Below, piece after piece: positions 12,042 through 21,236 of a DNA stretch of 35,545 bases. Source of the stretch: a bacterium. GTDB taxonomy: Bacteria > Planctomycetota > Planctomycetia > Pirellulales > Pirellulaceae. Position numbers and translations under genes: made by a program. Below the pieces are notes generated by a model. It saw only the letters and a program-made list of their open reading frames with translations. It did not search any database and was not told the origin of the DNA. Position 1 is the first letter of the stretch. Each line of letters opens with the position of its first letter. The stretch covers positions 1 to 35,545 of the forward strand of contig JANSWS010000027.1 of assembly GCA_024743355.1 (NCBI GenBank), given 5' to 3'.

Positions 12042-15000
12042 CTAGGCGGCTTTGTGATTGATGATCTCGCCCTTGTCGTTGACGTCTTCAAAGCGGACAG
12101 CAACCTGCTTGCTCACGCCGGATTCTTCCATGGTCACGCCGTACAAAGTTGTGGCTGCGGTCATCGTTTTCTTGGAATGTGTGACCACGATGAATTTCGT
12201 CCAATCCAGAAACTCGTTCAGCACGCTGACAAAACGACCAATATTGGCCTCATCAAAGGGAGCGTCGACTTCGTCCAGAACGCAGAAGGGACTCGGGCGG
12301 TACTGAAAGATGGCTAGTAACAGAGCAACCGCGGTCAGAGCTTTCTCGCCGCCGCTCAGCAGCGAATTGGAAAGTGCGGTTTTTCCCGGCGGTGTCGCAA
12401 TGATCTCGATACCGCCTTCAAGTACGTCTTGTCCATCCTCCAGGATGATGTCCGCATTACCACCGCCGAAGGACTTGCGGTAAAGCTTCTGGAAATTCTG
12501 CCGAATGATCTGCAGCGTCTCGGTGAACATTCTGCGGGAGTCTTGATTGATTTTTTGAATGATCCGTTGCAGCGACTCCTTAGCAGCCAGCAAATCTTCG
12601 TATTGTCCATTCAAGTAATCATATCGGCCTTGGAGTTCATCCAGTTCGGCCAGAGCGGCCATGTTGATTTCCCCAACGGAAGCCACGTCCTGTCGCAGTT
12701 GGGAGGCTTCCTCGTCGAGCTGCCGCTGTTCTTCCGGATCCAGAATGGCTTCCACGCCCTCCAAGGACTTCAACTCAATCTGGTAGTCTTCGCTGAATCT
12801 CTTGAGCAAAGTCGCGCAGGAATCGCGGTAGCGTTCGAGTTCCAGCTCGCAAGTTTCGCTCTGCTGTTTTGTTTTCTCCAGCGTGCGAATTGTGTGTTCC
12901 AAATGCTTGGCAGTTTGGGTACGGATGTCGCGCAAATCCTGGGCTCGCGCCGCCAATTGATCCAATTCCGCGTCTTCCGCTTCTTGGACCAGATAGGCTT
13001 CGGCAAGCTGGGCAGTCAGTTCCAGGATTTCGAGCTCGCTGCTCTGCTTCTTGTGCCGCTGAAGCTGCATGTCGCGTTCGGCTTCTTGCTGGGAGGCCAG
13101 GCATTCGCTGTGATTATGCAAGCCTTGCTCCCGGGTCACCCGCATAGCCTCCAGCTTTTGCTCAGCACGGGCAAGACGCACCTGGGTCGACGTTTCTTCC
13201 TCGGCAGCTTCCGTCAGACGCTTTTCATCGTTTCTAAGAGTCTGCTCCAACCGCCCGCGTTGACCCTCGAGGGTGTCGATCCTGGCTTGCAATTCCTGGG
13301 CGCTGCTCTCCAATTCGGCCAGTTGAGGATCCAGTTGTTCGCGTTGTTCCAGCTGTCGTTGGTGCTGGAGTGTCAATTGCTCCAGCTCCGTGCGCAAGCT
13401 GGCCAGCGACTGGCTGGCCGATTGTTCCATAGCTTGTTGCCGCGCGGTCTCCTGTTCCAGGCTTCTGGCTCGCTTTTCCAATTCAGCGATTTGCGGCAGC
13501 AATACTTCCATGGCCTGAGATTTGGAATCAATGAGCTCTTGCAGCTGCTGCTGTTGCGTCTTCAGTTTGGCGATTTCGGTCTTGGCAGCCTCAATCTCGC
13601 TGCGACGAGAAACCAAGCCCATAGTGGACTGCAGGGCACCTATGGTAAGCAGACCATCGGATTCAATCAGCTCTCCGGCGGTGGACACAAAGCGTAGGCC
13701 TGCGCCGCGGAAATGTCCGAGTTCGAGGGCGATTTCAAGCGTTTCCACGACCCAGGTCGTGCCCAAGAAATATCGCACGAGCGGCATGAACTTATTCTTG
13801 CACCGGACCAGGCGATCCGCTCTTCCCACCACGCCATCGACGCCTTCCAGCTGGACTTTCTCGGCAAATCGACGCGCGGGAATTCGATCCAGTCGCATCA
13901 GGCTAAGGCGACCGGGAACCGAGATTTCACCCGAGCGAATGCGCTGAATCAGGCTGCCGTCTTCCAGTACCAAGATATTGGCCTGCGGTCCGAGGGCGGT
14001 ATCGATCAGGGGAGCCAACTGCACGTCGACTTTCAGCAGGTCGGCCAGCAGGCCGTGCACAGACTGCAGGGCTGAATCCGCGGAATGCTTGGCGAGGTCG
14101 ATGATATATCGGGCACCCGCATCCACTCCCTCCTGCTGCTGTTGGAGCTGCTCCAAGATGGACAGCCGCTGAAGCTGGCCACCAAGCTGGGCTTGAATTG
14201 TTGCCGCCTGCTCTTGATAGCTGGCTAGTTCCGTCTGCACGGTAGTGGAAGCCTGCCTTGCTTGGTCAAAGGCCTGCTGGGCTTGGGATGTCTCCGCTTG
14301 AATTTCCGCCAAGCTGGCGGCTGCCTGCTCAGCTCTCTGTGCGGCTACTTCCAGGGCAGTGCTGCGAGCTTCCAGTTTGGCTTTGGAGTTCTCAATGGCA
14401 TCGCGGATAGTAGCCCACAGATTTCGCATCTCGGAAATGCTCTTGCGGGCGTGGTTGTGTTCCGTTTGGAGACCGGAAATTTCCGCTCGTAAGGAATCTT
14501 GACGCTCGCGATTTTCCGAGACATTGTTGCGAAGTTCCAGGGCCGCAGCGGAGGCCGCGCGGGCGCGGACCACGGCTTCGTCGTATTCGGACTGAATGTC
14601 TTGCAACTCACGCTCAATCCGCTTGGTTTCCGTCGCAAACTTTGCCAGACGAACGCGAATCGTGCTTAGCCGCAGGCTCTGATTGTGCTCCGCCTCCTGC
14701 AGATCCAGAATCCGAGCCCGCAAGGCCTGCTGCTGATTCTGGCATACGGCAATTCGCTGCTGCACAGTTTGCAAGCGGCCCTCGACATCCTGACAAGCCC
14801 GAGCGACTTCATGCAGGTCCATTTCGGCCCGCTGAGCGTCGTTGCGAGCAACCTCAAGCTCGGCTTGTTGTTGTTCACGATCGGCCTGGAGTTCGAGCAG
14901 ACGTGCCTGGGAGACCTGAGTCCTTTCGGTGAGCTGCGTGTATTCAGTCCAGCCCAAGCGTATACGGAGTTCGTGCAGTCGCGAAGTCATCTCGCGGTAC

Positions 15001-15644
15001 TTTTGCGCCTTGGTTGCTTGCGACTTCAAGCGGTTCAGTCGCAAATGAACCTCATCCACAATGTCCTTGAGCCGCACCAGGTTCTGCTCAACGCGTTCCA
15101 ATCTACGATTGGCTTCCGCCTTCTTGGCGTTGAAGCGGCTGATGCCGGCTGCTTCTTCGAAGATCAAGCGACGATCTTTCGGCGAGGCCTGCAGCATGCG
15201 ATCGACTTTGCCCTGCTCAATCAAGCTGTAGGCATCGACGCCTACTCCCGTTCCACGAAACAGGTCTTTGATATCCTTCAGCCGACAAGCCTGGCCGTTA
15301 ATCAGATATTCACCTTCGCCGCTGCGATAAACTCGGCGAGTGACATGAACTTCATTGGCGTCGATGGCCAGGCGCTGCTCACGATTGTCAAAGACTAACG
15401 TGGCCTCCGCGCTGTTCAGCGGTTTACGTCCAGAAGAATTGGAACCCTTGAAGATGACATCAATCATGTCCTTGCCGCGAAGCGACTTGGCGCTCTGAGC
15501 CCCCAGCACCCATTTGATCGCATCGACGACGTTGGATTTTCCGGAGCCATTGGGGCCCACGATGACGGTAATGCCATCCGAAAAATCAAAGCGCGTCTTC
15601 TCGGCGAAGCTTTTGAAGCCAGTTAATTCAAGGGCTGTCAGCAT
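12042..15644 (-). CDS. smc: Smc, chromosome segregation/condensation ATPase
   Basis: This full-length bacterial SMC has 1200 residues. It forms the condensin-like ring that organises the chromosome, normally with ScpA and ScpB, which are not in the window. Walker A is G30-P-N-G-S-G-K-S37, after the typical N-terminal L-x-G-F-K-S-F. Two long coiled coils (about 170-510 and 685-1040) flank the hinge (about 529-680). The ABC signature L-S-G-G-E-K is at 1096-1101, and Walker B ends in D1124-E1125. All catalytic elements are present. ATG 15644 is a natural start because the first residues match the family. It lies 37 bp downstream of the FlgI-like lipoprotein gene on the same strand, so they may share a transcript. 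Confidence 0.97.
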   Translation of the reverse strand: MLTALELTGFKSFAEKTRFDFSDGITVIVGPNGSGKSNVVDAIKWVLGAQSAKSLRGKDMIDVIFKGSNSSGRKPLNSAEATLVFDNREQRLAIDANEVHVTRRVYRSGEGEYLINGQACRLKDIKDLFRGTGVGVDAYSLIEQGKVDRMLQASPKDRRLIFEEAAGISRFNAKKAEANRRLERVEQNLVRLKDIVDEVHLRLNRLKSQATKAQKYREMTSRLHELRIRLGWTEYTQLTERTQVSQARLLELQADREQQQAELEVARNDAQRAEMDLHEVARACQDVEGRLQTVQQRIAVCQNQQQALRARILDLQEAEHNQSLRLSTIRVRLAKFATETKRIERELQDIQSEYDEAVVRARAASAAALELRNNVSENRERQDSLRAEISGLQTEHNHARKSISEMRNLWATIRDAIENSKAKLEARSTALEVAAQRAEQAAASLAEIQAETSQAQQAFDQARQASTTVQTELASYQEQAATIQAQLGGQLQRLSILEQLQQQQEGVDAGARYIIDLAKHSADSALQSVHGLLADLLKVDVQLAPLIDTALGPQANILVLEDGSLIQRIRSGEISVPGRLSLMRLDRIPARRFAEKVQLEGVDGVVGRADRLVRCKNKFMPLVRYFLGTTWVVETLEIALELGHFRGAGLRFVSTAGELIESDGLLTIGALQSTMGLVSRRSEIEAAKTEIAKLKTQQQQLQELIDSKSQAMEVLLPQIAELEKRARSLEQETARQQAMEQSASQSLASLRTELEQLTLQHQRQLEQREQLDPQLAELESSAQELQARIDTLEGQRGRLEQTLRNDEKRLTEAAEEETSTQVRLARAEQKLEAMRVTREQGLHNHSECLASQQEAERDMQLQRHKKQSSELEILELTAQLAEAYLVQEAEDAELDQLAARAQDLRDIRTQTAKHLEHTIRTLEKTKQQSETCELELERYRDSCATLLKRFSEDYQIELKSLEGVEAILDPEEQRQLDEEASQLRQDVASVGEINMAALAELDELQGRYDYLNGQYEDLLAAKESLQRIIQKINQDSRRMFTETLQIIRQNFQKLYRKSFGGGNADIILEDGQDVLEGGIEIIATPPGKTALSNSLLSGGEKALTAVALLLAIFQYRPSPFCVLDEVDAPFDEANIGRFVSVLNEFLDWTKFIVVTHSKKTMTAATTLYGVTMEESGVSKQVAVRFEDVNDKGEIINHKAA

Positions 15645-15681
15645 GCGATTGCGGGTCGGCGTTCAGGAATGGCGGCAAAAT

Positions 15682-17478
15682 TTATTTGGATTCAGAGGAA
15701 TCAACCCAGGAAAGTGGGTTCCACAAAGTCTTGCGTGCGCCGGAGGAGTCGTCTCCAGGCTGGCTGCTAATATCTAGATAGGTTTGCTCGAAGATCGCAT
15801 CGCCCGGCTCCGTATCCGCTGGCTTGGTCTGGCGGCTATATGTCCTTCCAGCCTGGGGAACGGGATTCAATGCCATGGGTTCGAAGAAGTTACCTTGCTC
15901 GTGCGATTGGCGTACGAAGTTCACCCAGTCGCCATAGGTGCCGCCAACATCCGCGATGGCTGTAAGCACGCTCCGCAAGTCGGCATCGCAGGTCACCACA
16001 CGGTCCTCTTCTCCGGGACTGAAGTAACTTACGTTCAGTTTGCCCCCTGATTCGGGAGCGATGATCAGCCGCTGATTGACCATTTGAAACGAGCCGATGT
16101 GCAGTTGTGGGTTGCAGCCGAACATTACGATTTCCGGCACTTGGGAGAGACTCACGGCTACCAAAGGCGGACCCATTGAGGGGAACTCCAGGATCTGTCC
16201 GGTCTCACCAACGGCATGGCTGGCCACCGAGCGGTCGCTGGCGTCACGACGTCGCAAGGCCCTTATCGCTCCGTACTTAACCTCAGGCTCAGCGGCGTGG
16301 GCCAACTTCTTTAGCTCCTCACCAGCTTCGTAGCTCTCGATCGCAACCAGGCCGTTGAAACACATGGCTCGGAAAGCCGGTTCTCGCAAGCACAGATTGG
16401 AGAGCTTGGGGATGGCTCGGACGTCGTCCAGGTAAGCTAGCGAATGCGCTACGTAGAAGCTGATTTCAGGGTCGGGATGATCCAGGACTTCGGCTAACAG
16501 CGGAATGCCGCCTTCACCCAATGCTTCCAACTGCCAGCAAGCTTCACGAACGGTCGTCGGCTCGCGAAGCTGCTTCTTGAGCGTCTCCATCCGCTCGGCT
16601 TGGTCCTCGCTGCTTTCATTGAAGGCAACCCGTAGGACAACATTGATATAGTGATAGGGATCTTGTTGATAACGCGGCGGAACTTTGACGTCGATATAGC
16701 TGGATTCCTGAGGAGTCGCCACGCCTCCCATTTTCTGACCGTTGAAATAGGTGAACCTTCGGTTGATGGCCGGAACAATCGCGCTCATGGTGATGGCATC
16801 GGCATATTCCGCGTCCACCGAGATGCCCATGTCGCGTCCTTTCAGCAGACGGGCTCCGCCGACTATGATGCCCTGCAACGCAGCCTGCGGATCCTCAGAT
16901 CCGGTGCGTTGCTGGTCGGTTACCACGTAGCCCTCGGCCTTGGCCAAGTCGAAACCCTCGCGTACCTCGCCACCTAGCAGGCTCATTTCCAGCAACGGTG
17001 TTTCCATTAACCAGCCGTGCAACAGACTGCTGCCTTCCGCGTGGGAGCTCAGTTTGACCACGACGTCCAAACGATCTCCACGCTGAGCAGCCGGCGGGAC
17101 AAAGGATGACGTCACGACCAAAGCTGTCGTGGGGTCGTCCAGAAATGCGTTGGGCGTCTCGGCCTCCTTGCGACGCATGACATCCAACATCTTTTCGCGC
17201 TGCTGGCTGGCATTGACGATGCCCCCCGTATTCCACAACTGGGTCATCAGCCCAATGTTCTCGATACGAGCTTGAGTGAGCATGGCAGGGGACGCAATCT
17301 CCTTCACCAGCGTCGGACGTTGCTCGTCCTGAAGCTTGATGCGAATCGCATCCCGGCGGGTCCCCACCTCAGATCGCAATTCGTCTTTCTTGGAGAACCA
17401 AGGCGACGTGCAACCCGTCGCACAGGGAACGCTCAGGCCAAGCAATAGAATCAACGGGCAAATCTGAGATCGCTTCAT
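15682..17478 (-). CDS. FlgI (P-ring)-like lipoprotein with HEAT-like repeats
   Basis: This predicted lipoprotein has 598 residues. ATG 17478 is chosen because a signal sequence starts there (M-K-R, a Leu/Ile core, then A-T-G with Cys23 as lipidation site); ATG 17487 is possible. Residues about 110-285 resemble flagellar P-ring protein FlgI: G-D-R-L-D-V-V-V, a Met-Glu-Thr-Pro-Leu strand, I-I-V-G-G-A, and an N-G-Q-K-M-G-G-V-A-T-P stretch near 250. Residues about 300-415 are helical HEAT-like repeats (L-L-A-E-V-L-D-H-P-D-P-E-I is typical). Near 496-523, D-L-R-S-V-L-T-A-I-A-D-V-G-G again resembles the FlgI C-terminus. The protein may therefore be a FlgI-type fold with an inserted repeat domain. 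No other flagellar gene is nearby, so a motility role is not supported by context. The FlgI comparison is from memory of the family. Confidence 0.7.
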   Translation of the reverse strand: MKRSQICPLILLLGLSVPCATGCTSPWFSKKDELRSEVGTRRDAIRIKLQDEQRPTLVKEIASPAMLTQARIENIGLMTQLWNTGGIVNASQQREKMLDVMRRKEAETPNAFLDDPTTALVVTSSFVPPAAQRGDRLDVVVKLSSHAEGSSLLHGWLMETPLLEMSLLGGEVREGFDLAKAEGYVVTDQQRTGSEDPQAALQGIIVGGARLLKGRDMGISVDAEYADAITMSAIVPAINRRFTYFNGQKMGGVATPQESSYIDVKVPPRYQQDPYHYINVVLRVAFNESSEDQAERMETLKKQLREPTTVREACWQLEALGEGGIPLLAEVLDHPDPEISFYVAHSLAYLDDVRAIPKLSNLCLREPAFRAMCFNGLVAIESYEAGEELKKLAHAAEPEVKYGAIRALRRRDASDRSVASHAVGETGQILEFPSMGPPLVAVSLSQVPEIVMFGCNPQLHIGSFQMVNQRLIIAPESGGKLNVSYFSPGEEDRVVTCDADLRSVLTAIADVGGTYGDWVNFVRQSHEQGNFFEPMALNPVPQAGRTYSRQTKPADTEPGDAIFEQTYLDISSQPGDDSSGARKTLWNPLSWVDSSESK

Positions 17479-18178: not shown

Positions 18179-18634
18179 ATGCTGCTGACCGGAAATTACC
18201 GAAGAAGCCTTGATGAAAAGCTGCGATTAGCTCTTCCCAAGCCGATGCGGGATGAGTTGGGAGAACAATGCCTGTTTCTGACTCCGGGGACGGATCGGGC
18301 GTTGGTGGTTTATACAGGAGACGTATTGGACCAAATAGGGCAGGCGCTCGGCAGACTCAGTCCGGCAGCCAAGGAAGCTCGGTCGTTTAGCCGCTTGTTC
18401 TATTCGCAAGCACAGCCAGCCGAAGTAGATCGCCAAGGCAGGTTGAGAATCCCACCGGAACTGGCAAAGTTATCCGGCCTGTCGGGTGAGGTCGTGGTGG
18501 TTGGTTTGCGTGATCGCATGGAAATTTGGAATGCGGATGCCTGGGACAGGTTTTTGCAGGAAACGCAGCCCAGCTACGATGAGTTAGCCGAGCGGGTGAT
18601 GGAAGAAGCCCACCGTATGCGTGATAACAGCTAG
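18179..18634 (+). CDS. mraZ: MraZ, transcriptional regulator of the dcw locus
   Basis: MraZ is a DNA-binding protein of the SpoVT-AbrB (swapped-hairpin) fold that forms a ring and represses its own operon. The 151 residues hold two such domains: the first with D-E-K-L-R-L-A-L-P-K near residue 12, the second with V-D-R-Q-G-R-L-R-I-P near 82. Both carry the basic residues used for DNA contact. Length is normal. ATG 18179 fits the family start (M-L-L-T-G), but no Shine-Dalgarno sequence is visible before it. Upstream lies a five-box MraZ operator. In most bacteria mraZ is followed immediately by rsmH and then ftsL/ftsI/mur genes; here rsmH follows after 403 bp and no division gene follows it. 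Confidence 0.95.
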   Translation: MLLTGNYRRSLDEKLRLALPKPMRDELGEQCLFLTPGTDRALVVYTGDVLDQIGQALGRLSPAAKEARSFSRLFYSQAQPAEVDRQGRLRIPPELAKLSGLSGEVVVVGLRDRMEIWNADAWDRFLQETQPSYDELAERVMEEAHRMRDNS

Positions 18635-18799
18635 AGGAGTGACTCGAACTTGACCGAATCAGGGACCCTACTTCAGCTAGCGGCCACAAGCTGAAGAGCC
18701 ACAAACAGGCAGCGGAGTCAGTTGTGCCAAGCATGCTTGCTGACAATTGCTTCCCTACCTGTGGGTCCCATTTGCTTTCCGCATGGACGTCGGAAGGTT

Positions 18800-18827
18800 G
18801 CACTGAAGTCGAACGGAGTTTCAGTGC
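18800..18827. repeat. Inverted repeat, 8-bp arms
   Basis: GCACTGAA (18800-18807) is complementary to TTCAGTGC (18820-18827) across a 12-nt loop. No T run follows. Confidence 0.7.
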
Positions 18828-18848
18828 ACCGCCGGTAGCCGCAAACTG

Positions 18849-18868
18849 CGGAAGCAAGGATGCTTCCG
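18849..18868. repeat. Inverted repeat, 8-bp arms with tetraloop
   Basis: CGGAAGCA (18849-18856) pairs perfectly with TGCTTCCG (18861-18868) around an AGGA loop. Related half-sites occur near 17702 and 17761, which hints at a dispersed repeat. Confidence 0.7.
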
Positions 18869-18904
18869 TGGCCCGGTCGGTCTGCGGCTTAGGTCGGACT
18901 CTTG

Positions 18905-18920
18905 TCGTCGTGCACGACGA
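18905..18920. repeat. Perfect 16-bp palindrome
   Basis: TCGTCGTGCACGACGA is a perfect dyad with no spacer. It lies about 117 bp before the rsmH start and could be a binding site for a dimeric regulator. No cognate protein can be named. Confidence 0.6.
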
Positions 18921-18977
18921 TGCGATATCTCCGTATAGTGATGACTTCGGAGGCCCCGTGGCGGCGTAATATATCAG

Positions 18978-19026
18978 CCCCGGGCAAGCGACTTCGGGGT
19001 ACTGCTGAAGACAGCGTCGCCCGGGG
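18978..19026 (+). promoter_or_regulatory. GC-rich stem-loop just before rsmH
   Basis: CCCCGGGC (18978-18985) is complementary to GCCCGGGG (19019-19026), enclosing 33 nt. An alternative register also pairs GCGAC with GTCGC. The stem ends 11 bases before ATG 19038, so in RNA it would sit beside the rsmH initiation region and might limit translation from that start. Confidence 0.5.
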
Positions 19027-19037
19027 TTGGAACCTTA

Positions 19038-20075
19038 ATGCACCCCCGATTTATCAACGCATTGCGGCGGCTCATCCATCATTCAGTTCCTTTTCACTCC
19101 GCGGACGCAACCTTGTCAGAAATCGACCCAGGCGGGCGGCCCGCCGAGAGTTCAGCCAATTCAGGCCATCCAAAGGAAAGTGTGCATGTGCCGGTTATGC
19201 CCGCCGAGATTCTCAAGCTGGGAGAACCTGGCCCGGGTCAATACTGGATTGATGGGACCGCGGGCGGTGGCGGTCATAGCCAACTGATCGCGGAACGGAT
19301 CGGTGAACAGGGGCGGTTGCTAGCCATCGACCGTGATCCTGCGGCCGTCGAGCGGCTGCGCCCGTTGCTACCTGAGAATGTGCGGGTGGAACAGGCTTCC
19401 TATCATGAAATCCCAAAAATGTTGGAGCGACTGGAGTGGCCCCTGGTGGATGGGATTCTACTGGACCTGGGGCTCAGTAGTGACCAGTTAGGCGACGCCG
19501 AACGTGGATTTAGCTTTCAAACTCAAGGCCATTTGGACATGCGATTTGATCCCACACGCGGTAAGCCCGTATCGGAGTGGCTGCGCTACGCGGATGAAAA
19601 AACAATCGCCGATACCATTTACGAATACGGCGAAGAACGCTTCAGTCGGCGGATTGCTAGACGCATCGTGGAGCAACGTCGATTAAGTCCGATCGAAACG
19701 GCCGAACAGTTGAAAGAAATCATTTATCGCTCGATTCCCGGCGGTAGACGTTCGAGCCGAGGTGGCCTACGACATGGGCGAGTCGATCCCGCGACGCGCA
19801 CCTTTCAAGCCTTGCGTATCTTCATTAATGACGAACTGAAAATACTGCGTTCCGCGCTGGAAAAATTACCCAATCACTTGCGTGTCGGTGGCAAACTTCT
19901 GATCCTCAGCTTTCATTCGCTCGAGGATCGAATCGTCAAGCATCATTTGCGAGAGGATCTGAGATTGGAAGTCGTGACCAAGAAACCTTTGTCTGCCGGT
20001 GAACAGGAGGTTCATGATAATCCCAGGTCTCGAAGCGCCAAGTTACGAGTAGCAAGGCGTGCGGCTAACGGCTAG
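19038..20075 (+). CDS. rsmH: RsmH, 16S rRNA m4C1402 methyltransferase
   Basis: RsmH (MraW) N4-methylates cytidine 1402 in the 16S rRNA decoding centre. The family core starts at H-V-P-V-M near residue 50. The SAM-binding motif is D72-G-T-A-G-G-G-G-H-S. The segments L-D-L-G-L-S-S, F-S-F-Q-x-x-G-x-L-D-M-R and L-S-F-H-S-L-E-D-R are strongly conserved in the family. The 345-residue length includes an N-terminal extension of about 48 residues that typical homologues lack. It may be real, or translation may start later, for example at a GTG near residue 47 or 50. The stop codon falls inside the left arm of a large palindrome. It follows mraZ, as in the classical dcw order, but with a 403-bp gap. 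Confidence 0.95.
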   Translation: MHPRFINALRRLIHHSVPFHSADATLSEIDPGGRPAESSANSGHPKESVHVPVMPAEILKLGEPGPGQYWIDGTAGGGGHSQLIAERIGEQGRLLAIDRDPAAVERLRPLLPENVRVEQASYHEIPKMLERLEWPLVDGILLDLGLSSDQLGDAERGFSFQTQGHLDMRFDPTRGKPVSEWLRYADEKTIADTIYEYGEERFSRRIARRIVEQRRLSPIETAEQLKEIIYRSIPGGRRSSRGGLRHGRVDPATRTFQALRIFINDELKILRSALEKLPNHLRVGGKLLILSFHSLEDRIVKHHLREDLRLEVVTKKPLSAGEQEVHDNPRSRSAKLRVARRAANG

Positions 20076-20203
20076 TGCTTTGTTTCAACTAAAAATCTGG
20101 GTTGGCTGTAGTGGACGAGGCGACGAGTCCCGGCCATTTGCAAGGATCTTGGACTCGTCACATGGTCCACTACCCTAAAGTTGAACTGCAACAAAGCATT
20201 AGC
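20071..20203. repeat. 133-bp nested palindrome between rsmH and the DUF481 gene
   Basis: The outer arms are GCTAGTGCTTTGTT (20071-20084) and the complement of AACAAAGCATTAGC (20190-20203), with one mismatch in 14. A further CAACT/AGTTG pair follows after an asymmetric bulge. The inner arms are TAGTGGAC (20109-20116) with GTCCACTA (20165-20172), and GACGAGTCC (20122-20130) with GGACTCGTC (20151-20159). The inner loop is 20 nt. The element overlaps the last two codons of rsmH and supplies its TAG stop. No open frame or clear target-site duplication is present. It could be a MITE-like or REP-like repeat, or an RNA structure protecting or ending the mraZ-rsmH transcript. Confidence 0.8.
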
Positions 20204-20282
20204 TTGGGTTCCATCTTGTTGAGCGGCACGGAATGCTTTACAAGCCCAGGTAAATTGCATGTGTTGTCTGGGAGAGTGCCGC

Positions 20283-21236
20283 ATGGGCACATGGATTCGT
20301 CTGCTAGCATTTCAATTTCTGGTATCGCTTGCGTGCATGCATGCCGCCAGCGGACAACCACCGTGGTTGGAGGATCTGTCGCTACCGGCAGTGCCGGCGG
20401 AGGCTTTGTTGGAGCCACCACCACCGCTGGAACCGCTTTCGACGCCGCCCGATGCATCGGCTGGCGAGCCCCTGCCGTTGGATATCAATCCACCGCTTGC
20501 GGACGAGTTGCCCCCGGCTGTTTTCGAGAGTGAAAGCAAGGAAACTCGCTTAAGGTGGTATTACCCATGGACCTGGATTCCTTTGGATGGTTGGACCAAC
20601 AGCGCGGAGTTGGGCATCAATGGCTCCGAGGGCAACTCCCAATCGTTGGCCTTTCAGGCTGGAGCCCGTTTTAAGCGGAAGACCAAGCTGCACTTGTTTG
20701 ACGTTCGGATCAGCCATAATCGGACCCAAGCGGATGGAGTCGAGACTCAAAATAATGCTCTGCTGTTTGCTGATTATGAGCGTTTTCTAGGTGAGTCTCC
20801 GTGGACATATTTCGTCAAAAACGGTTTGGAATATGACGAGTTCAAAGCTTTCGATCTCCGTTACAACATCAACTCGGGTTTAGGCTACAGCTTTTTCCGA
20901 ACGGACGATTTGACGCTCGCGGGTCGTTTCGGTGCTGGTGCTTCCCGGGAGTTTGGTGGTCCTGATAATTCGTGGACACCGGAAGCATTGCTGGGAGGCG
21001 ATTATGAGCATCAGCTCAACAAGCGGCACAAGTTGATTGCCCGGGTGGACTACTTTCCGAGCTGGGAGGATTTCAGCGATTTTCGCTTAGTGGCCGATGT
21101 AGGCTGGGAACAATTGCTCAACGAAGAGGGGAACTTCTCGCTTCGCTTGGGTGCCAACGATCGCTACGACAGTACACCCAACGGTCGCCGTCCAAATGAT
21201 CTGAATTACCAAGCACTATTCTTGTACAAGTTCTAG
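20283..21236 (+). CDS. DUF481-type outer-membrane beta-barrel protein
   Basis: ATG 20283 gives 317 residues and has GGGAG eight bases upstream; an upstream ATG at 20259 has no such site. A signal peptide (M-G-T-W-I-R, then a Leu/Phe/Ala core, cleaved after A-A-S-G) is followed by a Pro/Leu-rich segment to about residue 85. The rest alternates polar and hydrophobic residues in amphipathic strands, with N-S-A-E-L-G-I-N-G-S-E-G-N-S near residue 105, characteristic of DUF481, and a C-terminal Phe (L-F-L-Y-K-F) typical of outer-membrane barrels. The function of the family is not known in detail; some homologues are salt-induced outer-membrane proteins. It lies 207 bp from rsmH, beyond the palindrome, and probably has its own regulation. 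Confidence 0.8.
   Translation: MGTWIRLLAFQFLVSLACMHAASGQPPWLEDLSLPAVPAEALLEPPPPLEPLSTPPDASAGEPLPLDINPPLADELPPAVFESESKETRLRWYYPWTWIPLDGWTNSAELGINGSEGNSQSLAFQAGARFKRKTKLHLFDVRISHNRTQADGVETQNNALLFADYERFLGESPWTYFVKNGLEYDEFKAFDLRYNINSGLGYSFFRTDDLTLAGRFGAGASREFGGPDNSWTPEALLGGDYEHQLNKRHKLIARVDYFPSWEDFSDFRLVADVGWEQLLNEEGNFSLRLGANDRYDSTPNGRRPNDLNYQALFLYKF

Follow-up and report, generated by a model that had tools for sequence, protein, structure and literature searches.

The gene at 15682..17478 on the reverse strand of the stretch analyzed here (35,545 nt of planctomycete DNA, hereafter the window) encodes a protein of 598 aa that resembles FlgI, the protein forming the 26-fold ring around the flagellar rod, but is interrupted by HEAT-like repeats and is located next to smc. 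This raises the question of whether it is an envelope ring or scaffold protein that has departed from the flagellum or a planctomycete-specific variant of the P ring, the two possibilities left by a sequence-only reading of the window. We refer to the family of this P-ring-derived HEAT lipoprotein as FLP.

Two Pfam domains are identified in FLP above the curated cut-offs, PF02119 (FlgI; E 5.9e-13, residues 58–289) and PF13646 (HEAT_2; E 1.2e-9, best stretch 299–367), and the FlgH domain (PF02107) is not found by Pfam. The NCBIfam FlgI models score far too low to pass (34.2 bits against a cut-off of 300 and 22.1 against 557), and in a protein search at E≤0.001 FLP matches nothing but itself in its own genome. 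Along the reverse strand, the gene encodes a predicted lipoprotein signal peptide ending at the lipobox ATG-C23 (17410..17478); a first FlgI part, residues 56–289, corresponding to the IRU and OR domains of the P ring (16612..17313); an inserted HEAT solenoid, residues 290–411 (16246..16611); a second FlgI part, residues about 435–538, corresponding to the IRL domain (15865..16176); and a low-confidence, probably unstructured C-terminal tail, residues 558–598 (15685..15807), with pLDDT <50. The P-ring/HEAT/P-ring layout and the lipobox had been recognized from the sequence and stand, while the limits given for the P-ring-like parts (110–285 and 496–523) have to be replaced by 56–289 and 435–538, and those of the HEAT block (300–415) by about 290–411.

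The AlphaFold2 model of FLP, based on an alignment of 62 rows, has pLDDT 88.7 and pTM 0.82, with helices spanning residues 290–411. When the whole model is compared with the PDB by Foldseek, the four best matches are P-ring chains of the Salmonella type (best E 2.8e-12), and these are the only ones at E≤0.001. VIA-align superposes residues 56–289 on residues 20–247 of the Salmonella P-ring chain 7bgl_a (Z 16.9, 206 residues, rmsd 8.8) and matches the HEAT block to alphaRep/HEAT structures (Z about 10.9). For the first part, the FLP profile also aligns with canonical FlgI (hhalign, E 9.8e-26, residues 56–287). The profile alignment ends at residue 287, leaving the C-terminal flank unconnected to FlgI, and the profile A5, built from members outside the class of the window genome, likewise aligns by its N part alone, without covering this flank; hence the C-terminal kinship rests on structure. 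Folded alone, residues 413–550 yield pLDDT 90.2, and the four best VIA-align rows are all FlgI 247–365 (Z 6.1–7.0, 76–82 residues, rmsd 2.4–3.4), followed by an unrelated row at Z 3.6; Foldseek ranks the P ring top for this flank with E of just 0.022, and unrelated chains appear from rank 3. This predicted match is of moderate strength: its scores are middling in themselves, yet the VIA-align values stand apart from that of the following row. The FlgI fold (IRU, OR, and IRL) is present in FLP, with strong agreement for residues 56–289 and moderate agreement for residues 435–538, so that superposition on FlgI, suggested earlier as a check, finds both flanks to be structurally like FlgI.

In the mature numbering used in the text of PMC8298488, the FlgI domains are IRU 12–159, OR 1–11 and 160–230, and IRL 231–346. 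We assume that the PDB chains of FlgI are numbered as precursors whose signal peptide has 19 residues; removal of 19 residues from E. coli FlgI places lysines at positions 63 and 95, as numbered in the same text. Under this assumption, position 247 is mature residue 228, and the HEAT block is placed at the OR/IRL boundary or within a few residues of it. As predicted from the sequence and the model, FLP is a FlgI into which a further domain has been set at the junction of two others. A chance patchwork was considered and rejected, as the HEAT insertion falls at a FlgI domain joint. The architecture is also far above chance, since it is kept in homologues only 19–32% identical to the window FLP.

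Compared with known systems, FLP shares with FlgI (PF02119; Salmonella 7bgl, 7cbl) the same two fold parts in the same order and common motifs, e.g., GLVxGLxGTG and SLxGG. However, FlgI is uninterrupted, about 365 aa long, has a plain Sec signal peptide and is found among flagellar genes and only with a flagellum, whereas FLP has 598 aa, the HEAT insert and the lipobox, is encoded beside smc and is present without flagella. The insert, about 122 residues long, forms a HEAT solenoid as in HEAT_2/alphaRep-like proteins (PF13646), but there the solenoid is free, and in FLP it interrupts a lipoprotein whose fold is that of a ring protein. By its lipobox FLP resembles FlgH (L ring, PF02107), a lipid-anchored envelope protein and the lipoprotein of the LP ring according to the text of PMC8298488; unlike FLP, FlgH has the FlgH domain, and it is encoded by a separate gene in the window genome. 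A further difference from FlgI concerns the rod-facing lysines, mostly replaced in FLP. Lys63 and Lys95 of FlgI matter for P-ring assembly (text of PMC8298488), and the corresponding residues of the window FLP are P and S. Position 95 is K in 4 of 44 FLPs (T in 28) compared to K/R in 11 of 17 canonical FlgI, and position 63 is K/R in 8 of 44 compared to 7 of 17, the counts being the same in three alignment modes. As K/R at position 95 is missing in six of the 17 canonical FlgI, including that of the window genome itself (Q and T at positions 63 and 95), Lys95 separates FLP from FlgI weakly, and these residues lend only mild support to a loss of rod binding by FLP.

Cys23 is aligned in all 19 rows of alignment A2 (the window FLP and 18 of the 24 family loci L002–L025), and a lipobox is detected by pattern in 122 of 137 FLP members. 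Some of the remaining 15 are cut at a contig end or have a GC motif by eye (L045, L068, and L205 are such cases); no lipobox is found by pattern in L176 and L177 or in the five members examined from family f90, considered below. Alignment A3, comprising class members (the window FLP and 61 of 80 loci), left out 19 loci that were truncated, had an uncertain start or were pattern-negative for the lipobox, and the presence of Cys23 in its every row is therefore partly a result of selection. From these sequences, FLP is probably exported and lipid-anchored at Cys23. In 24 members a loose pattern finds an RR motif ahead of the hydrophobic stretch (e.g., L156, L034, L053, L064, and L070), suggestive of Tat-type export in some lineages, such as that of L156.

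Homologues were drawn from whole planctomycete genomes and from a named collection, of which the best 80 of 332 relatives were kept, most of them titled Pirellulales, Planctomycetaceae or Planctomycetota. A single-protein search found FLP in 29 of 199 genomes of the phylum. With the FLP profile, matches are observed in 195 of 198 class genomes at E≤1e-5 and in 193 at E≤1e-50 (at most six candidates scored per genome; three in the SMC search and four in the wider-phylum search), and 176 of 177 good class genomes have FLP at E≤1e-5. The genomes without a match are G338, G354, and G373, the latter 99% complete. FLP is a core gene of one planctomycete class, kept even without a flagellum. In a wider set of 294 genomes, the A2 profile produced 284 matches at E≤1e-5, 43 of them above 270 bits, the threshold taken for a full-length FLP; by this threshold it is present in 21 of 21 class genomes and in 22 of 273 out-of-class genomes, and the weaker matches listed are mostly frames of canonical FlgI size. 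The 22 genomes belong to families f5, f47, f49, f58, f65, f71, f76, and f101, presumably Phycisphaerae. The A3 and A5 profiles align with E 2.5e-65 over 531 columns, that is, the same full-length architecture is found across deep lineages. Loci L217–L219 from genomes of family f33 hold, on short contigs, fragments of smc or of a divergent FLP, which suggests that FLP may occur in one more lineage.

A tree of 64 FlgI domains groups the 44 FLPs into a single clade (support 100/100, stem 1.27), and 17 canonical FlgI, including that of E. coli, and three long FlgI paralogues fall outside it. The branching within the FLP clade broadly tracks families; FLP is thus a paralogue of old standing, and its inheritance seems to have been mainly vertical.

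The gene order is conserved as well. The stop codon of FLP ends at 15682 and smc starts at 15644 on the same strand (12042..15644), and no terminator-like site is found in the 37-bp gap (15645..15681). The smc product has the SMC_N and SMC_hinge domains (Pfam, E 4.5e-69 and 1.4e-15) and matches TIGR02168 at E 2.6e-284, in agreement with the sequence-only reading; its remark that no flagellar gene is near also holds for the 19 other window ORFs scanned (of 33), where Pfam identifies no flagellar families. Adjacency to smc, proposed there as a check, is usually kept across planctomycetes. Immediately downstream of FLP, at a distance of −4 to 291 bp, a same-strand smc is found in 98 of 121 loci: 67 of the 80 from the named collection, 30 of the 40 regions fetched, and the window itself; four of the remaining 23 loci have less than 500 bp of downstream sequence. 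By profile matches, the pair is present in 117 of 131 class genomes with places listed for both genes, adjacency being defined as the same contig and strand with −50 to 1200 bp between the matches (gaps seen, 39–484 bp). This count leaves out f90 and genomes without both places listed, three FLP places having no listed SMC place, and at least one FLP (G351) of the 14 non-adjacent genomes lies at a contig end. Outside the class, smc directly follows FLP in 18 of 20 loci (15 of 16 of L201–L216 and three of four of L179–L182; genomes G394 and G442, two of the 22, are not among them). The exceptions are L182, without smc nearby, and L203, with 2.8 kb between the genes; at L209 the smc frame is open into FLP, but the smc match begins after it. 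Other neighbors vary between families: rnpA/yidD at 39, dnaJ at 34, an HTH-response-regulator gene at 31, and moaC at 20 of the 121 loci, each cluster being named after one example. Given how close the two genes lie and how well their order is conserved, FLP is probably expressed in one operon with smc.

Upstream of the pair in the window (18179–21236), mraZ and rsmH (mraW) are divergent and followed by a DUF481 gene, at a place where division genes are usual. At L099 (6857–7603), upstream of FLP, the ribonuclease P protein and YidD domains are encoded within one ORF.

The architecture, the kinship with FlgI, and the gene order described above are observed together with a distribution independent of the flagellum, described below; by sequence and model, architecture and kinship make FLP a non-flagellar lipoprotein of the FlgI family. 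The reading that we favor, held as a whole with moderate confidence, is that of a P-ring-derived non-flagellar envelope scaffold, probably oligomeric and expressed with smc. Exported FLP would be lipid-anchored at Cys23, its FlgI core might still self-associate into a ring or an arc, and the HEAT arms projecting from the core could offer a further protein of the envelope a surface to dock on. FLP would be a constitutive scaffold that the growth and division program produces along with SMC; the choice of membrane and the partner are presumptive. A bolder form of this scheme, which we consider doubtful, is a second, non-flagellar P ring of planctomycetes, in which lipid-anchored FlgI-derived subunits with radiating HEAT arms, encoded in one operon with SMC, would build a pore or collar, structural or tied to division, within the enlarged periplasm of this FtsZ-less phylum. 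On the favored reading, FLP would be a flagellar ring protein that has taken on a core role in the envelope of an entire bacterial class. Planctomycetes have many essential genes of unknown function and divide without FtsZ (text of PMC10632474). Annotation by the FlgI domain would label FLP as flagellar and may thus hide it, and the conserved pair with smc provides a defined target for deletion, tagging, and purification.

The scaffold reading has to be weighed against a monomeric HEAT docking or chaperone lipoprotein, in which the FlgI domains would be mere folded spacers and no ring would form. HEAT is a binding fold, the rnpA/yidD and dnaJ neighbors point to biogenesis, and the rod-facing residues are mostly gone. 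On the other hand, the FlgI domains are kept together at 19–32% identity, as expected if assembly matters, and these neighbors are absent from most loci of other families. Such a monomer seems to us rather unlikely.

The constancy of the FLP–smc order in the class and beyond it, while other neighbors are reshuffled, together with division without FtsZ (text of PMC10632474), could also be explained by a joint role of FLP and SMC in chromosome segregation or division, the pair representing one nucleoid–envelope pathway. However, eight genomes outside f90 have FLP apart from smc, with smc elsewhere in the genome, and FLP and SMC are expected in different compartments, so that no direct contact is expected between the exported lipoprotein and SMC in the cytosol. 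Moreover, family f90 (e.g., G210, G221, and G350) retains FLP without detected SMC. We take f90 to be Isosphaeraceae (and f91, Gemmataceae). By TIGR02168, SMC is detected in none of its 45 genomes with three candidates scored per genome, nor in five of them with 22 candidates scored each; the search output names 20 of them as misses and includes no f90 genome in its hits, and 28 SMC misses in the class that it does not name were derived by comparison with the full list of class genomes. At the same time, FLP is present in 43 of the 45 genomes. SMC is hence dispensable for the presence of FLP, any coupling between them is optional, and the pair suggests shared regulation or timing rather than a complex; we regard a common pathway as improbable. 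In the five fetched f90 regions (L165–L169), FLP is upstream of the HTH-response-regulator gene, with moaC next in three. The joint absence of SMC and LP-ring genes from one family is odd.

If FLP were an extra or variant part of the flagellar P ring, its homology to FlgI would be explained directly, and FlhA is indeed found in 162 of 198 class genomes; in f90, FlhA is present in 42 of 45 genomes and all PF02119 matches are of the FLP type. Yet FlgH is absent from all 12 f90 genomes tested, and FLP is encoded beside smc, not beside flagellar genes. In the window genome, a canonical flgI coexists with it, located on contig C489 with FlgH, FlgA, and two FlgEFG-type (rod) genes. FlhA is not detected in 36 class genomes, 16 of which were identified by their absence from the hits. 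FLP matches at E≤1e-50 in 33 of the 36; G288 and G356 have it only weakly, and G354, 64% complete, lacks it. PF02119 matches 30 of these 36 genomes; G284, G318, and G328 have FLP at E≤1e-50, yet no PF02119 match. As G376 has a canonical FlgI, its FlhA may have been missed. The single-contig genomes G213 and G229, without FlhA and FlgH, keep FLP followed by SMC. FLP is thus neither a sole P-ring gene nor tied to the flagellum, and the check on non-flagellated species raised by the sequence-only reading finds it in genomes without detected FlhA; of the two possibilities posed there, the departure from the flagellum is supported by the FlgI-like flanks, the FlhA-less genomes, the coexisting canonical FlgI, and the smc adjacency, and the P-ring variant is disfavored and in our view very unlikely. 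FLP as the flagellar P ring itself was rejected, given the canonical flgI in the same genome and FLP in FlhA-less genomes.

Finally, a ring of the planctomycete crateriform structures is the least probable reading and can hardly be entertained: these are outer-membrane complexes, at least some of them tied to the cell membrane, about 104 per P. limnophila cell (text of PMC5394234), FLP is near-universal in the class, and the LP ring is 260 Å across (text of PMC8298488), but FLP is also found in the 22 out-of-class genomes assigned above, and in the text of PMC7783415 crateriform structures are not observed in Poriferisphaera corsica, with "no" given for one relative and "not determined" for two others.

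Our searches of the open-access PMC literature listed no description of FLP, and the main text of the P. limnophila essential-gene paper contains no occurrence of "P-ring," "flagell" or "SMC" (PMC10632474). According to the text of PMC12758564, PhoA fusions showed export when they carried the signal sequence of an anammox planctomycete's "flagellar P-ring protein," which may be FLP or canonical FlgI. A third FlgI-like protein, of about 590–630 aa and with an N-terminal hydrophobic segment, is observed in genus g5 (L197:1872–3758, L198:1881–3644, and L199:1143–2957); the g5 proteins cluster as a single long-branched clade within the canonical FlgI.
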